This document shows positions 6,913 to 33,451 of a DNA stretch of 33,451 bases, piece after piece (position 1 is the stretch's first letter; every line of letters begins with the position of its first letter). Position numbers and translations under genes: made by a program. The DNA comes from Sulfurimonas sp. (GTDB lineage: Bacteria; Campylobacterota; Campylobacteria; Campylobacterales; Sulfurimonadaceae): positions 1 to 33,451 of the forward strand of contig QNZS01000063.1 in assembly GCA_003978465.1 (NCBI GenBank), read 5' to 3'. The notes under the pieces were generated by a model. The model had not been told where the DNA came from and ran no database searches. It was given only the letters and a program-made list of their open reading frames with translations.

Positions 6913-7248
6913 AAATATATCTAAGTTTAGTTTTCCTGAATCAGCATGTGTAAGACTGAGATTTGACATTATTTACAAATAAAGGAAGAACTAGATTTCC
7001 ATTATAAGAAAATAATTGTGAAGATAACTTAAACATGGTATTTCTCTTGTAAATAATGAAGACGAAAAGTGTTCTGTCTAGTATTGTGAGGATCCCTAGA
7101 AGTAGAGGTTCACTTTTATAAATATATAAAATACTACAAATAAGAGCTGTATACTTAAAGAATGTAAATATAAATGACATTATATTACTTAAGTGAAAAG
7201 GCTTATAAATAATAGTATTATTACATTATTAAAGAACTTAGGAAGATA

Positions 7249-7494
7249 ATGGCTTATTTCGTTTACATACTTAAATGTAGTGATGATACTCTCTATACTG
7301 GAATCACTACAGATATTAGTCGGCGTTTAGATGAGCATAACAACTCAGCCAAAGGAGCGAAGTACACAAAACTTCGTCGTCCAGTAATGCTAGTTTATAG
7401 TGAAGATAGTGAGGACAGAAGTTCTGCTTCAAAACGCGAGTATACCATCAAAAAACTATCTAGAAAAGAAAAACTGGAGCTTATAAATGTTTAA
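7249..7494 (+). CDS. GIY-YIG nuclease-superfamily protein (YhbQ/UPF0213 type)
   Basis: This is a small single-domain protein of 81 residues. The GIY-YIG core reads VYILKCSDDTLYTGIT (residues 5-20), followed by the conserved Arg in DISRRLDEHN and the Glu in SKREYTIKKL. UPF0213 proteins of this size are linked to DNA metabolism, but their role is poorly defined. AGGAAG lies ahead of the ATG. The last 8 bases overlap the DUF188 gene, so the two are probably co-translated. Confidence 0.88.
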   Translation: MAYFVYILKCSDDTLYTGITTDISRRLDEHNNSAKGAKYTKLRRPVMLVYSEDSEDRSSASKREYTIKKLSRKEKLELINV

Positions 7495-9979: not shown

Positions 9980-10687
9980 CTAAATAACAAAAGAAGAGAT
10001 TAGTCCGATTAGTCCACCAAAGACACCACCCCAAACTACTAACCAATCAAGATGCTCTTTTATGAGCTTTTGAACCATCTCTTTTACGAGCTCAGGTGAG
10101 AGCTCATTTAAACGTAAGTCAATAACTGACTCAATAGAATTTATCATATCATCATTAAGAGAAGAGTTTTGAAGATGCTTTTGCATAGTGTCATTAAAAG
10201 CATCTGAATTTACAATTTTTATGACGGCTGTTCTCATTTTAGAAGAAAATGGCTCACGCAAATTTTCAAGTGCAGACTCTCCTCCAAACATACCAAGCAT
10301 TCCACCAAATGATGACTCCATTACTGTTTTACTTAGTGCATCGAAGGCTGGAGAAAAATCTGTCTCTTCTATGATAGGTTCTAAGTTGATTTTTTGCTCT
10401 TCTTTTGCAAAAAAACTATCTAATTGTTCTTTAGTAAAAAACTCACTCATCATAAGGTTTTTTATAGATGCTTTAAATGCTTCAAAACGTAGGGGGATAA
10501 CACCGCTTCCATATAGAAGGGGTACTTTCTCAAAAAGCATATGAATAGCAAGCTGGTTCGTAAGTGCTCCAGAGAGGGCAAATAGCCCTGTAAATAGTAG
10601 GGAATTATGTAAGTCCAAAAAGACAAAAGACAATCCTATTAGGGCTAGTGCTATGATATTTGTACTATAACTTTTATTTAAATTCAT
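9980..10687 (-). CDS. DUF445 family membrane protein
   Basis: This 235-residue protein has two N-terminal membrane helices (residues about 10-28 and 30-50), a long soluble amphipathic helical middle, and a C-terminal membrane helix in WGGVFGGLIGLISSFVI. FALSGALTNQLAIHMLFEK followed by LLYGSGVIPLRFE is the DUF445/YheB-type signature. The function is unknown. The ATG at 10687 has GGAGT three bases upstream, which fixes the start. Confidence 0.85.
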   Translation of the reverse strand: MNLNKSYSTNIIALALIGLSFVFLDLHNSLLFTGLFALSGALTNQLAIHMLFEKVPLLYGSGVIPLRFEAFKASIKNLMMSEFFTKEQLDSFFAKEEQKINLEPIIEETDFSPAFDALSKTVMESSFGGMLGMFGGESALENLREPFSSKMRTAVIKIVNSDAFNDTMQKHLQNSSLNDDMINSIESVIDLRLNELSPELVKEMVQKLIKEHLDWLVVWGGVFGGLIGLISSFVI

Positions 10688-10736
10688 ATGACTCCAATAT
10701 TTAACTTAACATATTTTTTGTAAGTATATCAAAAGT

Positions 10737-10930
10737 TTATATAGTACCTCCACCAATCATAAAAGATGCTACTAAAGAATCATATGTGGTGCCATTAAAA
10801 CATAAATAAGGTACGACTAAACCTATTAAAGGACTAATAAACCCTTTTTTAGTACCAATATACTATAGTTTAAACGGTATTTTATCTACCAGCACTCTAT
10901 GCGATGGTAAATGACATCACTGCTATTGGA
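10737..10930 (-). pseudogene. Broken membrane-protein gene of unknown family
   Basis: The minus strand reads KPYPIAVMSFTIA, stop, SAGR, stop, NTV, stop, TIVYWY. It then continues in another frame as KKGFISPLIGLVVPYL with a final VASFMIGGGTI before TAA at 10737-10739. The pieces are hydrophobic and consistent with the C-terminal half of one membrane protein hit by at least three nonsense changes and a frameshift. It lies just upstream of the DUF445 gene on the same strand. I do not recognise the family. Confidence 0.45.
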
Positions 10931-10936
10931 TAGGGT

Positions 10937-12031
10937 TTACTTTACTATTTTATTATATTTAGTCAGGAACATTAAAAGTACACCTATAAAGACTATAAAA
11001 GCAGTGAGGTAAAGGCTTGTGTTAAAGTTTCCAAACTCAGCTATGAGTGCTACACTATATAGAGGTGCTCCAATTTGACCTATACTGTAGGCGGCTGTCA
11101 TTGAGCCCATTAGTATAACGGGATTGTGTTTAGAAATCTGTCCCCCAAGGTTCATAAAAAGTGCTACAAGGCCTATAAAAGTGCTTCCATATAAAGCCGC
11201 ACTTAAAAGGTTAATATATATGTTAGTGCTGAGTGTTGGCAGGAGTATGCCTATGACTTGTAGTAAGAGTGCAAAGATTATAATATCTACACTGTTAAAC
11301 CTATGTGCTAAACGCATCCAAAGTATGGAAGAGGGGATTCCTGCGAGTCCGACTATAAGCCATGCTAGGTTTCCTTTTCCCTCTAAACCCTCAAGAGAGT
11401 TTACTATTTCAGGTAAAAAAGTTCCTTGAACTACAAAACCTACACCTTCAGTTAAGTATGCAAGTATAAGTAAAACTACATAAACAGAAAAAACAGACTT
11501 TGTACTCTTTTGATAAAGAGTTTCTTTATGTAGCACTTTATCAAATGAAAGAATATGAATAATATAAAAAGCAAAAATAAATGCTATAAATGCGAGAACT
11601 AACCAAGCCTCACTCCAGGAGTGCTTCTCTAAAACTATCTGTGATACTAATTCACTTATTACAATAGCAAAACCGATACCACTAAAGTGAATACCCATAG
11701 CTTTTGTTTTGTGTTGTAAATTTAGTTTAAGCATGACTAACGAAGCACCGACTAAAAGTATCATGGCTGAGCCAAATCCTGCTAAAATACGAGAGATTAT
11801 CCATAAAATTTCATTGTGTGTAGTCCCAAGTATAATAGATGTACATATGCTCAAAACTATACCTATACGGAAGTAAAAAACTTTTTTTTGTATGTTTTGG
11901 AGTGAAACTGAAAAAAGTGAACCAGATAAATAACCAACAAAATTAAGTGAAGCCAAAATACCAGCCTGTGTGACAGAGAGGTAATCTTCAAGCATAGATG
12001 GTAAAAGTGAGGTAAATGCAAAACGTGCCAC
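10937..12031 (-). CDS. MFS transporter, YbfB/YjiJ family
   Basis: This is a major facilitator with about eleven or twelve membrane segments. The family start is normally LAG followed by a Gly-rich stretch and then RFAFTxLLPxM, and here RFAFTSLLPSML follows the first residues. The substrate is unknown. The first usable start, GTG at 12031, lies inside membrane segment 1. The same frame continues upstream with NSNANILLAGILSIIIGVGV, the expected missing half of that segment, but has no ATG, GTG or TTG before an in-frame TAA. The original start may have been lost, or translation may depend on coupling with the small gene 12090-12215. Confidence 0.8.
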   Translation of the reverse strand: MARFAFTSLLPSMLEDYLSVTQAGILASLNFVGYLSGSLFSVSLQNIQKKVFYFRIGIVLSICTSIILGTTHNEILWIISRILAGFGSAMILLVGASLVMLKLNLQHKTKAMGIHFSGIGFAIVISELVSQIVLEKHSWSEAWLVLAFIAFIFAFYIIHILSFDKVLHKETLYQKSTKSVFSVYVVLLILAYLTEGVGFVVQGTFLPEIVNSLEGLEGKGNLAWLIVGLAGIPSSILWMRLAHRFNSVDIIIFALLLQVIGILLPTLSTNIYINLLSAALYGSTFIGLVALFMNLGGQISKHNPVILMGSMTAAYSIGQIGAPLYSVALIAEFGNFNTSLYLTAFIVFIGVLLMFLTKYNKIVK

Positions 12032-13499: not shown

Positions 13500-13946
13500 T
13501 TATCCCATCTGAACAGAATCTATCTCACCTTTAAACTCAATAATTGAGAAGGTAACTTGATTCGCAATTGATTCAGGTGTATTTCTTCTCAGTGCTGTAT
13601 CTCTTAAACGAATTTTACGTGTAGGTTTATTGTAGTCACCTATGACATAAGTTACCATGAAGTAAGGATCGGCATGGATATCGCAGTTTGAAAGTGTTGA
13701 TTCAATATCAGGTACACAATAGTCAATCTCAATATCAGGATCTACCATTGATTTCTTGACAAGTTCTAGAACTTGTGCAAGTCTATCGTGAAGGTTTTCT
13801 TTTGCCCCTTCAATCTCTTTTGGGTCATTAAGAAGTGATAGAATTCTTTCTACTTTTTCTTTAATCTCCTTTTCCTCTACAGTATTTTCTGTATCATTGA
13901 GAAGTGTAACAACTTCTTCAAGTTTTTCTTTTATTACTCGTTCCAT
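13500..13946 (-). CDS. Unknown protein, tandem paralog 2 (helical repeats)
   Basis: This 148-residue soluble acidic protein has an N-terminal half of three similar helices: IKEKLEEVVTLLNDTE, IKEKVERILSLLNDPKE and LHDRLAQVLELVKKSM. The C-terminal half starts IDYCVPDIESTLSNCD and contains YFMVTYVIG and KPTRKIRLRDTAL, which suggests a small beta domain. It is homologous over its full length to the gene at 14086-14529. AGGAG lies seven bases before the ATG, the same layout as in the paralog. No known family is recognised and there are no membrane or export signals. Confidence 0.75.
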   Translation of the reverse strand: MERVIKEKLEEVVTLLNDTENTVEEKEIKEKVERILSLLNDPKEIEGAKENLHDRLAQVLELVKKSMVDPDIEIDYCVPDIESTLSNCDIHADPYFMVTYVIGDYNKPTRKIRLRDTALRRNTPESIANQVTFSIIEFKGEIDSVQMG

Positions 13947-14085
13947 AATAATTCTCCTAAAATAATTTAATTAGTTAAACATATATATAGACTGTACTAT
14001 GTGAAAAGACAGTTGGTTCTTTAGTACTGGCTATAACGAATGTTACTTGGTTTAAGTCTAGTAGATATAGACTTTGCAAACCTTT

Positions 14086-14529
14086 TTATCCCATTCTTAT
14101 ATCGTCAGATTCTTCTTTAAATACTTCTATTGCTTGTAGAATATGTAGTGTTAAATCTTTAGGAGAACTCTGTAGTGCTGTTTTACCTAAACTTACCTTA
14201 CGAGTTCTCGTCGTATATTGATCTTCACTATATGTTAATAATATGTGTGCGTCACCACCCATATCACAACTTGTTGCATCTGTAACTAAATCAGGGATAC
14301 AATATTCAACCTCTACCTCAAGATCAATCATTGCTTCATCAACGAGTGTTTTGATCTCCGCCAATCTTGATTTTAGTTCTGTCTTTTCAGTAGTCAATTT
14401 ATCAGGATTAGATAATAGTGATAAAACTTTTTCAAGTTTTTGTTTTACCTCTTGATCTAATACAACTTCATCGGAGTCATTGAGAAGTGTTACCACTTCT
14501 TCAAGTCTCTCTTTAATTTCAGTTCTCAT
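14086..14529 (-). CDS. Unknown protein, tandem paralog 1 (helical repeats)
   Basis: This is a 147-residue paralog of the gene 140 bases downstream. Its helices are IKERLEEVVTLLNDSDE, VKQKLEKVLSLLSNPDK and LKSRLAEIKTLVDEAM. The conserved centre is VEYCIPDLVTDATSCD, and both proteins end in MG. A longer frame would start at 14607, but AGGAG with a seven-base spacer to ATG 14529 and the match to the paralog fix the start. The pair arose by tandem duplication. The function is unknown. Confidence 0.75.
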   Translation of the reverse strand: MRTEIKERLEEVVTLLNDSDEVVLDQEVKQKLEKVLSLLSNPDKLTTEKTELKSRLAEIKTLVDEAMIDLEVEVEYCIPDLVTDATSCDMGGDAHILLTYSEDQYTTRTRKVSLGKTALQSSPKDLTLHILQAIEVFKEESDDIRMG

Positions 14530-14672
14530 AATGAATCTCCTAAATTTAATACAGCCAGAATAAGAATTTTTATCTGTGCTTAAAAGAAGTCTATCATAAA
14601 AAAACAAAAAGTTATAATAAATTATAATTTAATATTTATCTTTTGAAAATATATAAATTTAGGAGCATAAAC

Positions 14673-29224: not shown

Positions 29225-29332
29225 ATACCAAAAAATTAGTTAATATCAGTATCTGATGTTAACTGAATATGAAATTTTTATGTAGTTACAAGATCTTTTG
29301 ATAACATTATGAGAAATTTGATTAAGAAAGTC

Positions 29333-29530
29333 TTAGTATTTATTCATGATATCATTTACGATGTGTGTTGTGAGCCCATCTTTTACAACTAAAGCAGTTA
29401 TAGTTACTTTCCCAACTGCTCCTTTGATGCTGAGGGATACAAAGTTTAAAGAGACATTTATAATTGTTGCTTCAGCAAGGGCTAAAAGTATAAGAGTAAC
29501 GATTAGGAGCAATGTAAATTTTGTATGCAT
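29333..29530 (-). CDS. Possible small exported protein
   Basis: From ATG 29530 the frame gives a signal-peptide-like start (MHTKFTLLLIVTLILLALAEA) and about 44 more residues rich in Val, Ile and Lys (SIKGAVGKVTITALVVKDG). There is no ribosome binding site and no recognised family, so it may be the start of a dead gene. Apart from this, 29225-29766 is AT-rich with no supported gene. Confidence 0.3.
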   Translation of the reverse strand: MHTKFTLLLIVTLILLALAEATIINVSLNFVSLSIKGAVGKVTITALVVKDGLTTHIVNDIMNKY

Positions 29531-29766
29531 GAAGCACACTAACTATTGAAATATAGTCAAGACTAACAAAAAACTTTTAAATATTAAATGAGAGTTTATA
29601 GGAATAAGTAAATATTATTCGATTGAAATGGAATAGATTTAACTACATAATCTTTTGTTAATAAATTTACAGTAAATATTTATTCCGTATTTCTATCTAA
29701 TATATCGTAACCAAGAGACTTATTGTTATTATCTTTCCATTAAATCTAAATTTTATAATCCCAAGT

Positions 29767-29940
29767 CTATTTCTCAGTTTTATTATATGCTGCTTTTTTC
29801 ATTGCATCAAATTCTTTTTGCATCTCTCCAACAAGTATATCTTTTTCTCTTTCTGCTTCTTCTATTTTTTTAAGAATTTCTCTTCTTTCTTTTTCCATTT
29901 CCGCAATACTTGCATTTATCTCTGGTAGTGTTCGTTGCAT
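29767..29940 (-). CDS. Small coiled-coil protein, array family A copy 1
   Basis: This 57-residue protein begins MQRTLPEINASIAEMEKE and continues as one charged helix (ILKKIEEAEREKDILVGEM) ending NKTEK. It is predicted to be a coiled coil. The start at 29940 is set by AAGGA upstream and by the paralog at 30726-30890, which shares start, ribosome site and promoter. The MxRTL opening loosely recalls the oligomerisation helix of H-NS-like proteins, but no DNA-binding part is present. Function unknown. Confidence 0.6.
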   Translation of the reverse strand: MQRTLPEINASIAEMEKERREILKKIEEAEREKDILVGEMQKEFDAMKKAAYNKTEK

Positions 29941-29969
29941 GTTTATATTATTCCTTCTATATGTTATTT

Positions 29970-29990
29970 GTTTCACACTAATTATAGGTA
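29970..29990 (-). promoter_or_regulatory. Array promoter copy 1
   Basis: Read on the minus strand this is TACCTATAATTAGTGTGAAAC, carrying a TATAAT -10 box about 35 bases before the coiled-coil gene. Near copies lie at 30925-30945, 31292-31312 and 32135-32155, each upstream of a different minus-strand gene. Confidence 0.55.
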
Positions 29991-30000
29991 GTATTTCTTA

Positions 30001-30144
30001 ATGAATGGTGTACAGTTAGTAAGAATAAAAGGTATATATAAAAGTAAATTAGATGATAAGGGAGAATCCATTGAAGATGTACTTCCTGGTGTAAGTAAAT
30101 CTTCAGTTAGTTTGATAAAAGGAAAAAGTTATCAAACATATTAG
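30001..30144 (+). pseudogene. Serine recombinase C-terminal HTH fragment, copy 1
   Basis: ATG 30001 opens 47 codons. After an altered start the sequence is KGIYKSKLDDKGESIEDVL, then VSKSSVSLIKGKSYQTY and TAG. The pattern (basic KGxYKSKLD, then a helix-turn-helix SKSSxSxI) matches the DNA-binding tail of serine resolvases and invertases. The recognition helix is damaged and the frame stops early compared with copy 2. It could be expressed as a tiny protein, but it looks like a relic. Confidence 0.5.
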
Positions 30145-30319
30145 TTATTGTAATAAGGATAAATGGATAATCGAATTATATGAAAGTAATGCTTTTAATC
30201 TACTTAAATATTGGAGGTAACTAGAAAAGCTTATATTTTTGTTTCTATAATATACATCATTTAATTTTATGGGTCATTGATTTTCTTAAGAAGTTGCCTT
30301 TTTTCTATTTACATTTTTA

Positions 30320-30430
30320 CTAATACATTTTATATTTTATATTATGAGTATTGAGGTATTCGGATATCTCTTTCGTTGTAAGACCATTTGAATGAAGTCT
30401 ATGAATTAAGTTTAATTGGAATTGTTGTTT
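30320..30430 (-). pseudogene. HTH remnant of a recombinase or transposase
   Basis: A 37-codon minus-strand frame without a start reads QQFQLNLIHRLHSNGLTTKE and then ISEYLNTHNIKYKMY before TAG. This is the HTH often found in recombinases (LxxLHxxGLTxKEISxYLN, with N and I following). It lies in the otherwise gene-free stretch 30145-30523. Confidence 0.35.
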
Positions 30431-30523
30431 TTAAGGGAGAATATATTTACAGTTAACGCTTTAGTTATAGTTGTGACATTATATTCTACTACACCAACAT
30501 CTAGGTAACAATTTATATAATGA

Positions 30524-30722
30524 AACCTACTTCACCCTCACAATGTTGTCCAGTTGGGAAGAAGAAAAGGTATATATAAAAGTAAGCTAGATGATAAGGG
30601 AAGACATATTGAGGAGTTCCTTAGCAAATGTGTTAGTAAATCTTCAATCAGTAAGATAATAGATGTCAAGTATCAAACATTAGTCAGCTATTGTAATAAA
30701 AGAGAAATAGGGTCTTATCTAT
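30524..30722 (+). pseudogene. Serine recombinase C-terminal HTH fragment, copy 2
   Basis: This is an open frame of about 66 codons with no start codon. It reads QLGRRKGIYKSKLDDKGRHI, then EEFLSKCVSKSSISKIIDVK and YQTLVSYCNKREIGSYL to TAG. It is the complete DNA-binding tail of a serine recombinase (GRRKG linker plus helix-turn-helix) without the catalytic domain. It converges on the coiled-coil gene 30726-30890 with 3 bases between the two stops. Confidence 0.65.
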
Positions 30723-30741
30723 AGTCTAAAATCTATTTCTC
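30702..30741. terminator. Inverted-repeat junction between convergent genes, copy A
   Basis: GAGAAATAG (30702-30710) pairs with CTATTTCTC (30733-30741) across the stops of the recombinase fragment and the coiled-coil gene. It could act as a two-way terminator. Of the 32 bases from 30704, 30 are identical to 32553-32584 in a different gene pair. Confidence 0.5.
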
Positions 30742-30890
30742 AGTTCTCGACTTAACATTGCTGCTTTTTTCATCTCTGCGGCGATGATAACTTTTTCTCT
30801 TTCTGCTTCTTCAATTTTTTTAAGAATTTCTCTTTTTTCTTTTTCCATTTCCGCAATAATTGTGTTTATCTCTGATAGTGTTCGTGGCAT
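30726..30890 (-). CDS. Small coiled-coil protein, array family A copy 2
   Basis: This 54-residue paralog of the protein at 29767-29940 starts MPRTLSEINTIIAEMEKEK, continues ILKKIEEAEREKVIIAAEM and ends SRELRNRF. It has the same AAGGAATAATA ribosome site and the same promoter as copy 1. The near-identical N-terminal two thirds and divergent tails suggest a segment duplication followed by tail replacement. Confidence 0.6.
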   Translation of the reverse strand: MPRTLSEINTIIAEMEKEKREILKKIEEAEREKVIIAAEMKKAAMLSRELRNRF

Positions 30891-30924
30891 GTTCTTATTA
30901 TTCCTTCTTTATTTTATTTTAATT

Positions 30925-30945
30925 GTTTCATACTCATTATAGGTA
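30925..30945 (-). promoter_or_regulatory. Array promoter copy 2
   Basis: The minus-strand sequence TACCTATAATGAGTATGAAAC has a TATAAT -10 box upstream of the second coiled-coil gene. It matches copy 1 at 18 of 21 positions. Confidence 0.55.
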
Positions 30946-30972
30946 TTATTTCCTAATGAATGGTCTATCCTT

Positions 30973-31257
30973 CTAAACTTTTAGAAATAATTTCTTTAAA
31001 AAAGTCCCGGTCTTTGCTCTCAAAGTAAATGATAATATATTCAGTATAATATATATAACAGTGGTAAGTCGATCAGTAAAAATATCGTATTCCGATCCAA
31101 GAATATTTGCTAACCACCTTACAAAACTTCCATCTTGAAAATTAAAATACAATCCATAATACGAATAAGTATCTTTTGTTTCTATATTCCACATAATAAA
31201 CAAGATCACTACAGGAACACACAATCCTATCCATCTCCATGTTCTTTCTACTTCCAT
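30973..31257 (-). CDS. Small membrane protein of the array
   Basis: This 94-residue protein has a membrane helix near the N-terminus (WIGLCVPVVILFIMW), an external Tyr/Asp-rich loop (DTYSYYGLYFNFQDGSF), a second helix (TTVIYIILNILSFTL) and a basic tail (LKKLFLKV). AAAAGG lies eight bases before the ATG, and a copy of the array promoter lies upstream. No family is recognised. Confidence 0.6.
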   Translation of the reverse strand: MEVERTWRWIGLCVPVVILFIMWNIETKDTYSYYGLYFNFQDGSFVRWLANILGSEYDIFTDRLTTVIYIILNILSFTLRAKTGTFLKKLFLKV

Positions 31258-31291
31258 ATTATTGCCTTTTTATTTTGTTATTATTTATTTT

Positions 31292-31312
31292 GTTCTAAAC
31301 TAATTATACCTA
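31292..31312 (-). promoter_or_regulatory. Array promoter copy 3
   Basis: The minus-strand sequence TAGGTATAATTAGTTTAGAAC, with a TATAAT -10 box, lies upstream of the 94-residue membrane protein gene and is similar to copies 1 and 2. Confidence 0.5.
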
Positions 31313-31344
31313 TATATCTTATATGCAATAAAGAAATTTATCAG

Positions 31345-31562
31345 TTACCTATTCTTATAATGTGGATGTTTATATATTAGCTCTGGCATTGAAGTGTTTT
31401 CTGATTCAAGTCTAATGTATTCCCGATATTTACTATATGCATTATTAATCTGAGTATCAGTGACTTGGAGATAGTGTTTAAGTACACCTTGTGGAGCATG
31501 CCTAGACAGCTGTCAGCAACCATCCCCTCAATCTGGAAGTCAATCATCACATTCATCAACAC
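31345..31562 (-). pseudogene. C-terminal remnant of a tyrosine recombinase
   Basis: One frame gives DFQIEGMVADSCLG. With a one-base shift the sequence continues HAPQGVLKHYLQVTDTQI, then NNAYSKYREYIRLES and a stop at 31345-31347. LGH followed nine residues later by HY is the box II plus Tyr nucleophile layout of phage-type integrases. The upstream catalytic Arg region is absent, cut off at the junction with the third serine recombinase fragment. It is a dead piece of an integrase. Confidence 0.6.
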
Positions 31563-31565
31563 TCG

Positions 31566-31650
31566 TCTTCAATCAGTAAGATAATAGATGTCAAGTATCT
31601 AACACCAATCAGTTACTGTAATAAAAGAGAAATTGGATGTACTTTTTAGT
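31566..31650 (+). pseudogene. Serine recombinase C-terminal HTH fragment, copy 3
   Basis: The bases from 31566 to about 31633 closely match 30642-30709. They encode SSISKIIDVKYLTPISYCNK and REIGCTF before TAG. Only the last helices of the recombinase tail remain. As in copy 2, it ends just before the 3' end of a convergent minus-strand gene. Confidence 0.55.
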
Positions 31651-31658
31651 TCCTACTC

Positions 31659-32111
31659 TTATCCTTTATTGTACATCTTTTTATAATATTTATATTCACC
31701 TTTTGTTTCGCGATACTCTGTTTTTACTTCTTTCAGATAGTTCTCTACAAGGTATTCAATTCCATCAATTCCTTCATCTTCTAAAGTTTTAAGACGCTCT
31801 TCAAGTTGCCCTGAATATATATATAAGTCATCGACTAAACAGAAATCTAAAGTTTCCATGGACTCAATAAAATTCATTTTTTCGCTTTTAGATTCCTCTA
31901 TCATTTCTTGTAAGAATTCTTCCATTTTCTTTTCTATTTTCAATTTCTTATAGCGTTTTAGACCTCTTTCTTCCAGACCCCCACCATCGCTATCTTGATC
32001 AAACTCATCTACTTCACAAATAAAGAGTTTTAGACCTAACAATTTTCGCATGTTTGGATGATTTCTTAATTTGTCTAGTAGCGGTGTCTTGCTTGTTTTA
32101 TTCTTGCTCAT
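31659..32111 (-). CDS. Unknown acidic protein, array family B copy 1
   Basis: This is a 150-residue soluble protein. The conserved opening is TPLLDKLRNHPNMRKLLGLK followed by LFICEVDE. A charged helical middle (LEERGLKRYKKLKIE), SGQLEERLKTLEDEGIDGIE and a Tyr-rich end (EYKYYKKMY) follow. It is homologous along its whole length to the gene at 32575-33045. Small acidic helical proteins in arrays are sometimes immunity or antitoxin proteins, but nothing here proves that. A weak AAAAGG site precedes the ATG. Confidence 0.65.
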   Translation of the reverse strand: MSKNKTSKTPLLDKLRNHPNMRKLLGLKLFICEVDEFDQDSDGGGLEERGLKRYKKLKIEKKMEEFLQEMIEESKSEKMNFIESMETLDFCLVDDLYIYSGQLEERLKTLEDEGIDGIEYLVENYLKEVKTEYRETKGEYKYYKKMYNKG

Positions 32112-32134
32112 CTTATGCCTTTTCTATTTTATTT

Positions 32135-32155
32135 TACCATACTTATTATAGTGCT
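32135..32155 (-). promoter_or_regulatory. Array promoter copy 4
   Basis: The minus-strand sequence AGCACTATAATAAGTATGGTA, with a TATAAT -10 box, drives the family B gene. It is similar to copies 1-3 and sits back to back with the plus-strand promoter at 32175-32200. Confidence 0.5.
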
Positions 32156-32174
32156 TATTACTTTTAGTTTACTA

Positions 32175-32200
32175 AGAGTATAATAATTTAATAAAGGAGA
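32175..32200 (+). promoter_or_regulatory. Plus-strand array promoter and ribosome site
   Basis: AGAGTATAATAATTTAA, with a TATAAT box, is followed by TAAAGGAGA and the ATG at 32204. The first 17 bases are identical to 33333-33349, upstream of another membrane protein gene. The distance from the TATAAT box to the ATG is only about 20 bases, so the leader is short. Confidence 0.55.
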
Positions 32201-32203
32201 TTT

Positions 32204-32548
32204 ATGGACATAGATAGAATGGAATTTAAAGTTAACAATTTAAAAGAAAGAGTAGAAGAGCTATGTGATAAATCTAGTGCTTATGTTCGATATATAGTTT
32301 TAAGTGTATTGGGACTAGTCATCTCCCTGGGAAATATTATATCAAATATGTTATTTGGTTTTGATAATTTATATGAACATGGCGATTTTATTATTTATAT
32401 GTTGATCTTTTCAAGTTTCGCTTTTTTCATGATTAGAGCAATGAAAAGAGATGTGGATAGAGATCATTTAATTGCTAACAGCATTTATATGAGTGCTTTG
32501 ATAGAAATAGAAAACATGAAAAATAAATCTGAAACTTCTACAGAATAA
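32204..32548 (+). CDS. Small membrane protein with two helices
   Basis: This 114-residue protein has an N-terminal charged helix (MEFKVNNLKERVEELCDK), two membrane helices (YIVLSVLGLVISLGNII and FIIYMLIFSSFAFFMI), and a charged helical tail ending SETSTE. Both ends are probably cytoplasmic. AAAGGAGAT gives a strong ribosome site. It is divergent from the family B gene, with which it shares the promoter region, and is a candidate partner of it. No family is recognised. Confidence 0.65.
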   Translation: MDIDRMEFKVNNLKERVEELCDKSSAYVRYIVLSVLGLVISLGNIISNMLFGFDNLYEHGDFIIYMLIFSSFAFFMIRAMKRDVDRDHLIANSIYMSALIEIENMKNKSETSTE

Positions 32549-32551
32549 AAA

Positions 32552-32589
32552 AGAAATAGGGTCTAATCTATAGTTTAAAATCTACTTTC
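32552..32589. terminator. Inverted-repeat junction between convergent genes, copy B
   Basis: AGAAATAG (32552-32559) and CTACTTTCT (about 32583-32591) form an imperfect repeat around the stops of the membrane protein and family B copy 2. The plus strand also encodes the last residues of the recombinase tail (KKEIGSNL, stop), so this is a fourth, minimal relic of that fragment. Confidence 0.45.
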
Positions 32590-33045
32590 TCCAACTTTGA
32601 GTTTGTCATACTGCTCTTTGTGATATTCGTATGAATCTATCTCAACACTATAATCTGTCCTTGCAACTTGTAGGTAGTATTCTATAAGGTCTGTGATTCC
32701 ATCCACTTTACTCCATTCATATAATTTAAGTCGTTCTTCAAGTCGACATGAATCTACATAAAATGTATTCTCTAACCCTTCATTGAAGTCGTTTAGAAAG
32801 TCAATATAATTCACATTTTCACTTTCGCTTTCTAATAATAATAATTCTAAGTCTTTTTCTTTTTCTGCTTCTATCCCCAATTTCTTATATAGTTCTGAAC
32901 CTCTTTCCTGGAGATCCTCACCGTTACCATTATCCACCAACTCGTCTACTACACAAGTAAAGAGTTTTAGATCTAATAACTTTCTCATTTGTGGATGATC
33001 TCTTAATTGGTCTAGTAGTGGTGTTGTACTTTTTTCATTTTTCAT
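32575..33045 (-). CDS. Unknown acidic protein, array family B copy 2
   Basis: This 156-residue paralog of the protein at 31659-32111 opens TPLLDQLRDHPQMRKLLDLK followed by LFTCVVDE. It continues with LQERGSELYKKLGIEAE, SCRLEERLKLYEWSKVDGI, IEYYLQVARTDYS and YEYHKEQYDKL. It is acidic and helical, with no export signal. The two copies differ most in the middle, so the ends are the constrained parts. Its ribosome site is poor (TAGGTATAAAA before ATG). Confidence 0.65.
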   Translation of the reverse strand: MKNEKSTTPLLDQLRDHPQMRKLLDLKLFTCVVDELVDNGNGEDLQERGSELYKKLGIEAEKEKDLELLLLESESENVNYIDFLNDFNEGLENTFYVDSCRLEERLKLYEWSKVDGITDLIEYYLQVARTDYSVEIDSYEYHKEQYDKLKVGESRF

Positions 33046-33126
33046 TTTTATACCTATTTTATTTTAGCATATTATTTAATGCTTACTCTCAATCCTTTTC
33101 ATAGAAGTATGGTTCTGCGATATGTA

Positions 33127-33273
33127 TTATTTCTTTTGATCTAAATATGCTTTTGCTTTTGCTATTCGCCCACTTATCTGAATATCAGTTTCAGTTAATT
33201 TCTTTTGCTCTCGATATGCTTTTGCTTTTGCAAGTCTCTCAGTTCTTTGAGTATTATCTTCTTTTAATGCCAT
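33127..33273 (-). CDS. 48-residue protein built from an internal repeat
   Basis: ATG 33273, with AGAGAAGC upstream, opens 48 codons ending in TAA. The body is two copies of one motif: RLAKAKAYREQKK (residues 13-25) and RIAKAKAYLDQKK (residues 36-48), joined by LTETDIQISG. It is highly basic and helical and could bind nucleic acid. The linker TETDIQI resembles VTDTQI in the tyrosine recombinase remnant. It is divergent from the membrane protein at 33362. Confidence 0.5.
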   Translation of the reverse strand: MALKEDNTQRTERLAKAKAYREQKKLTETDIQISGRIAKAKAYLDQKK

Positions 33274-33332
33274 TGCTTCTCTTTATATCTAATTACATAA
33301 TCTTAGCATATAATTTAATACATACTCTCATT

Positions 33333-33355
33333 AGAGTATAATAATTTAAGAAAGG
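33333..33355 (+). promoter_or_regulatory. Plus-strand array promoter, second copy
   Basis: AGAGTATAATAATTTAA is identical to 32175-32191 and is followed by GAAAGGA ahead of the ATG at 33362. Confidence 0.55.
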
Positions 33356-33361
33356 ATTATT

Positions 33362-33451
33362 ATGGAAGTACTTTTAAAGTTGGGATTTGTTTTATTAGTA
33401 ATATGGATAATAAGTGGTTTGATAAATAAAAGGAAAGTTGAAAAAGAAACA
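33362..33451 (+). CDS. Small membrane protein, cut by the window end
   Basis: Thirty codons are visible: MEVLLKLGFVLLVIWIISGL, then INKRKVEKET, open to the window edge. It is one N-terminal membrane helix with a basic cytoplasmic side. AAAGGA lies seven bases upstream. It repeats the array pattern of a plus-strand membrane protein divergent from a minus-strand soluble protein. Confidence 0.55.
   Translation, partial: MEVLLKLGFVLLVIWIISGLINKRKVEKET

Follow-up and report, generated by a model that had tools for sequence, protein, structure and literature searches.

A mosaic block of duplicated orphan genes and broken recombinase ends beside mrp in Sulfurimonas, probably the cargo of a decayed tRNA-associated integrative element

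Directly past the mrp terminator, a Sulfurimonas contig turns into a run of small genes in mixed orientation, which raises the question of whether such a locus is a working cassette system, a resident cluster that duplicated in place or the remains of a mobile element. The window, i.e. the whole stretch of DNA analysed, is the entire contig C15 (33,451 bases) of a genome (G000) that is 82% complete in 74 contigs. The closest relative in the comparison is Sulfurimonas sp. UBA2011 (G009, contig DDCH01000010.1), and homology between the two ends at 29240, immediately after the terminator. From about 29.24 kb to the contig end at 33451, which cuts it off, the window carries a small mosaic block of duplicated cargo genes and broken recombinase ends (Table 1). 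A literature search by title and abstract found no mention of this locus. An earlier note on this DNA, made from the sequence alone, described an array of divergent gene pairs. The array is real, but the pairing is not general: 30160-30540 carries no convincing gene, and the 94-aa gene stands without a partner on the plus strand. A unique 0.5-kb stretch (29240-29767) separates the mrp terminator from the array; a 68-aa ORF within it (29333-29539, minus strand) has a signal-peptide-like stretch at its start. Elsewhere in the window, the minus strand of 13500-14607 carries a tandem pair of paralogous genes (148 and 173 aa; DNA identity 74% over 129 bp).

Table 1. Features of the array in the window, with counterparts in UBA2011 where present.
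Feature	Position	Strand	Remarks
Coiled-coil small protein 1 (coil1)	29767..29940	-	57 aa from ATG; 69 aa if GTG at 29976
Serine-recombinase C-terminal (HTH) piece, copy A, decayed	30001..30144	+	80% aa vs UBA2011 piece; dN/dS 1.6
Filler without convincing gene	30160..30540	.	stops crowd the frames
Serine-recombinase C-terminal piece, copy B	30542..30724	+	PRK13413 match; aligns with full recombinases
3' junction motif, repeated	30695..30745	.	this copy with hairpin GAGAAATAG...CTATTTCTC
Coiled-coil small protein 2 (coil2), 54 aa	30726..30890	-	UBA2011 counterpart 91% aa, dN/dS 0.39
598-bp insert	30968..31565	.	replaces ~90 bp of recombinase tail that UBA2011 has
94-aa membrane protein, within 598-bp insert	30973..31257	-	leader coil-like
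Possible tyrosine-recombinase end	31330..31490	-	by eye only; no database support
Serine-recombinase C-terminal piece, copy C, last 27 codons	31566..31649	+	93% aa vs UBA2011 piece
150-aa acidic helical protein	31659..32111	-	99% aa in UBA2011; paralogue of 156-aa gene
114-aa protein, two hydrophobic stretches (likely membrane)	32204..32548	+	paralogues in both genomes
3' junction motif, repeated	32544..32591	.	91% identity to 30695-30738
156-aa acidic helical protein	32575..33045	-	83% aa in UBA2011, dN/dS 0.29
48-aa ORF, 69-nt tandem repeat inside	33127..33273	-	leader resembles that of 156-aa gene
Small membrane-protein ORF (TM2), start only, cut by contig end	33362..33451	+	leader resembles that of 114-aa gene

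Self-BLAST of 29700-33451 returned direct repeats scoring 238, 167, 98 and 97 bits, while the maximum over 100 dinucleotide shuffles was 34.6 bits. Because these scores far exceed the shuffle maximum, the repeats are not AT-rich background. They include the pairs 29814-29969 / 30764-30919 (88% identity), 30641-30725 / 31566-31650 (85%) and 31864-32105 / 32801-33042 (72%). Two protein families occur twice, as had been proposed: the coiled-coil family, coil1 and coil2 (61% aa identity), and the 150/156-aa family (46%). The 3' junctions had also been called near copies, and a shared motif (AATAAAAGAGAAATAGGGTCT...) indeed lies immediately beyond the 3' ends of the coil2, 150-aa and 156-aa genes.

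Similar leaders also stand ahead of non-homologous genes. The likeness is strongest between the 156-aa and 48-aa genes (z=7.3), followed by the 114-aa gene and TM2 (z=6.4) and by the 150-aa gene and coil1 (z=5.2); it is weakest between the 94-aa gene and the coils (z=3.3-3.8). Three leader groups result: coil1, coil2, 94-aa and 150-aa; 156-aa and 48-aa; 114-aa and TM2. The claim of near-copy promoters stands as far as the leaders are alike, but their identity as promoters gained nothing from a general sigma-70 scan, which found no more sites than chance (27 against 27.2 expected). We infer a promoter role for the divergent regions from leaders that are common to several genes.

Comparison with UBA2011 places this block in an evolutionary context. 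The UBA2011 array (L027 7459-9255) is collinear but shorter, with the genes coil2, recombinase tail, 150-aa, membrane protein and 156-aa in the same order; window positions 30682-30967 and 31566-32455 correspond to L027 7459-7741 and 7832-8721. The earlier note had reasoned that a fixed gene order without gain or loss of units would speak against its reading. UBA2011 keeps the core order, and the two arrays differ by whole units and lie at different sites. The window has an additional coil-tail unit on the left and the 48-aa/TM2 unit on the right, and the 598-bp insert, which breaks a recombinase tail and brings in the 94-aa membrane gene, is absent from UBA2011. In UBA2011 the 114-aa gene has lost about 76 bp, so that its frame continues into the junction motif.

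The UBA2011 array adjoins groES, not mrp; there, only about 217 bp without an array separate mrp from glmS. Contig C26 of the window genome has groES together with just one tRNA-Met/tRNA-Asn pair, without an array. Since contig C19 of the window genome starts at the 3' end of glmS, the array is placed between mrp and glmS. Each genome therefore has an empty site where the other has the array, a comparison that rests on these two genomes. From the two sites and the whole-unit differences it follows that units have been gained and lost and that the block has been relocated.

Divergence along the array is uneven. Segment identities to UBA2011 are 98.3% (31566-32455, 890 bp), 95.4% (30682-30967), 89.2% (32520-33065) and 87.6%, and the core reference, taken across 6.4 kb of neighbouring DNA, is 90.3%. 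The 98.3% segment suggests a recent exchange between the lineages. Several hundred bases of the flank outside the UBA2011 island likewise reach 99-100% identity, and exchange was therefore not limited to the array.

These comparisons bear directly on the simplest alternative, that a resident cluster underwent local tandem duplication and decay without any mobility. The duplicated families do lie in tandem, and the coil-150-TM-156 order is kept in both genomes. This explanation is nevertheless unlikely: unless there is an assembly error, it is contradicted by the different sites with reciprocal empty sites, and it does not fit a 98.3% segment against a 90% core.

The surroundings of the UBA2011 copy point to another origin. 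A copy of the tRNA-Met/tRNA-Asn pair stands on either side of the array there (7061-7237 and 11021-11197), a 24-bp direct repeat lies near both ends of the island (at 7420 and 10970), and a tyrosine integrase at 10009-10931 is frameshifted across three frames (PF00589, 3.6e-11; PF20172, 1.5e-6). Such a layout characterises a tRNA-associated integrative element in decay. Tyrosine integrases are a feature of tRNA-associated islands, such as the asparagine-tDNA islands of Klebsiella (PMC4891358), and the UBA2011 island shares with them the tRNA-Asn/Met site, duplicated tRNA flanks, the integrase and lineage-specific cargo. It differs in being only about 4 kb long, with the integrase frameshifted, and its tRNA-pair duplication (185 bp) is longer than the usual attachment core. 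The window copy differs further: it sits at mrp-glmS, and no integrase, tRNA or attachment repeat was seen beside it on a contig that ends inside the array, and the window as a whole contains no tRNA.

We consider it likely that the array was carried as cargo by a tRNA-associated integrative element that has since decayed, a small genomic islet. As such, it is a further example of an already known kind of locus, a decayed genomic islet with orphan cargo. The observations underpinning this are the two locations, the empty sites, the collinear core, the gain and loss of units, the uneven divergence and the loss of the catalytic domain from the recombinase pieces (see below). We infer both the past transfer of the block by a tyrosine integrase, since broken, and the direction of that transfer. 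The coil1/coil2 and 150/156 units would have arisen by tandem duplication and other units by insertion or replacement of entire segments, with breakpoints within the repeated leaders, 3' junctions and recombinase tails. Later reshuffling may have proceeded by homologous or illegitimate recombination at the repeats. Across the two genomes, the locus clearly exemplifies a small islet that lies at different chromosomal sites, has gained and lost units and carries gene families for which these searches gave no further occurrence. It would illustrate how orphan genes can spread and diversify in Sulfurimonas via decaying integrative elements.

The recombinase pieces inside the array belong to a different enzyme class from the UBA2011 integrase. 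The earlier note had recognised fragments of a serine recombinase, and three plus-strand pieces do represent the DNA-binding C-terminus of a single serine recombinase of the Mpi family. For copy B, the match to NCBIfam PRK13413 covers residues 143-197 of 203 (E=1.5e-6), and copies A, B and C all align to the C-terminal HTH of full-length recombinases of the family in other genomes. Every copy begins downstream of the catalytic domain, which is absent throughout, and the N-terminal catalytic resolvase domain (PF00239) has no match in UBA2011 or in the 82% of the window genome that is assembled. A tyrosine-recombinase fragment had also been proposed for the window. The minus-strand reading at about 31330-31490 (RHAPQGVLKHYLQVTD) resembles an integrase end by eye, and it has no match in Pfam, PHROGs, plasmids, phages or IMG/VR; this candidate was dropped. 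The genuine, decayed tyrosine integrase is the one in the UBA2011 island.

Could a serine recombinase still be swapping units at the recombinase 3' end or the junction motif? Such an active modular cassette system would account for the recurrence of the recombinase tail and junction motif at unit borders and for the one unit gained within a tail between the two genomes. Living exchange of this kind is very unlikely because the catalytic domain was not found in either genome; moreover, the breakpoints vary in position, and no good inverted repeats were found at unit flanks, those within 450 bp being short, of low identity or close to AT-rich expectation (an estimate made without a shuffle test). 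The suggestion of a cassette-exchange or duplication locus thus holds for duplication and for gain and loss of units, but not for dedicated exchange machinery, since PF00239 and good inverted repeats are missing and the breakpoints lie in ordinary repeats. Invertible promoters of the Mpi type were set aside on the same estimate of the inverted repeats. The array pieces resemble Mpi-family (master DNA invertase) recombinases in their C-terminal HTH; unlike that family, they all lack the catalytic domain and have no convincing invertible-promoter repeats nearby. Chromosomal integron cassette arrays likewise combine small uncharacterised ORFs and repeated boundaries, but an integron array was rejected because the units here are divergent or convergent on mixed strands, not head-to-tail.

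Alternatively, co-option might have turned the detached HTH domains into small DNA-binding proteins that regulate the divergent promoters. In UBA2011 the tail forms an intact ORF of 61 codons that starts with ATG and diverges from the coil gene, and copy B and its UBA2011 counterpart show a dN/dS of 0.17 although both lack the catalytic domain. That constraint may predate truncation, however, and in the window copy A has a dN/dS of 1.6, copy B has no ATG and the insert interrupts copy C; nor does the UBA2011 ORF have an evident ribosome-binding site in front. Judged from sequence, co-option has a slender chance at best. The extended version, in which HTH domains kept as regulators of a repeated divergent-promoter module with slots for orphan genes would form a recombinase-derived cassette platform, is the least probable of all the explanations considered.

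The cargo of the proposed islet is largely orphan. Its families gave no significant match in Pfam, PHROGs, NCBIfam or PADLOC, and the tentative idea that they might be conflict or immunity genes finds no backing in these four resources; in particular, the PADLOC defence models identified no known anti-phage system. The 150/156-aa family is present in two of 135 genus genomes, the window genome and UBA2011. Outside the genus sample it was absent from IMG/VR, PLSDB and INPHARED, and the single GTDB contig recovered is that of UBA2011 itself. In a 399-genome sample of the order, from which UBA2011 was excluded, the membrane-protein and coil families had no relatives beyond their own genome save for a weak match in one genome (G369, E=1e-3), and neither these families nor the 94-aa membrane protein had relatives in IMG/VR. 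DNA matches in other genus genomes (43-49 bits) were set aside as AT-rich noise. The AlphaFold2 model of the 150-aa protein has a pLDDT of 54, too low for a fold search, and the protein has no sequence relatives in the PDB. Paralogues of the 114-aa protein adjoin a hydrogenase operon in both genomes (G000:C7 and G009:C15).

Between-species dN/dS suggests that the cargo genes are translated and mildly constrained: the ratio is 0.42 for the 114-aa paralogues, with the 156-aa and coil2 genes at the lower values in Table 1, and mrp gives 0.06. In the 150-aa pair, differences are too few for an estimate. Because ratios of 0.29-0.42 indicate purifying selection, part of the cargo is probably functional.

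The UBA2011 island contains further elements of its own. An orphan purD RNA motif (RF01069, 72 bits; L027:9401-9534, minus strand) lies upstream of the 156-aa gene in the same orientation, without purD; this copy (268 bp) shares 95.5% identity with that adjoining UBA2011's own purD. A 66-aa gene (MLVFENEELCEEEVARAE...; L027:9654-9986) has a 93% match to the tRNA-Ser island of the window genome, and its 5' part is found again within a longer gene on G009:C7 and on G000:C52. On G000:C7, an island of about 7.9 kb (L004:2100-9990) extends from tRNA-Ser to the 114-aa paralogue, two features that lie about 160 bp apart in UBA2011; its genes include AAA-ATPase-like, ankyrin-like and VWA (DUF2201) members.
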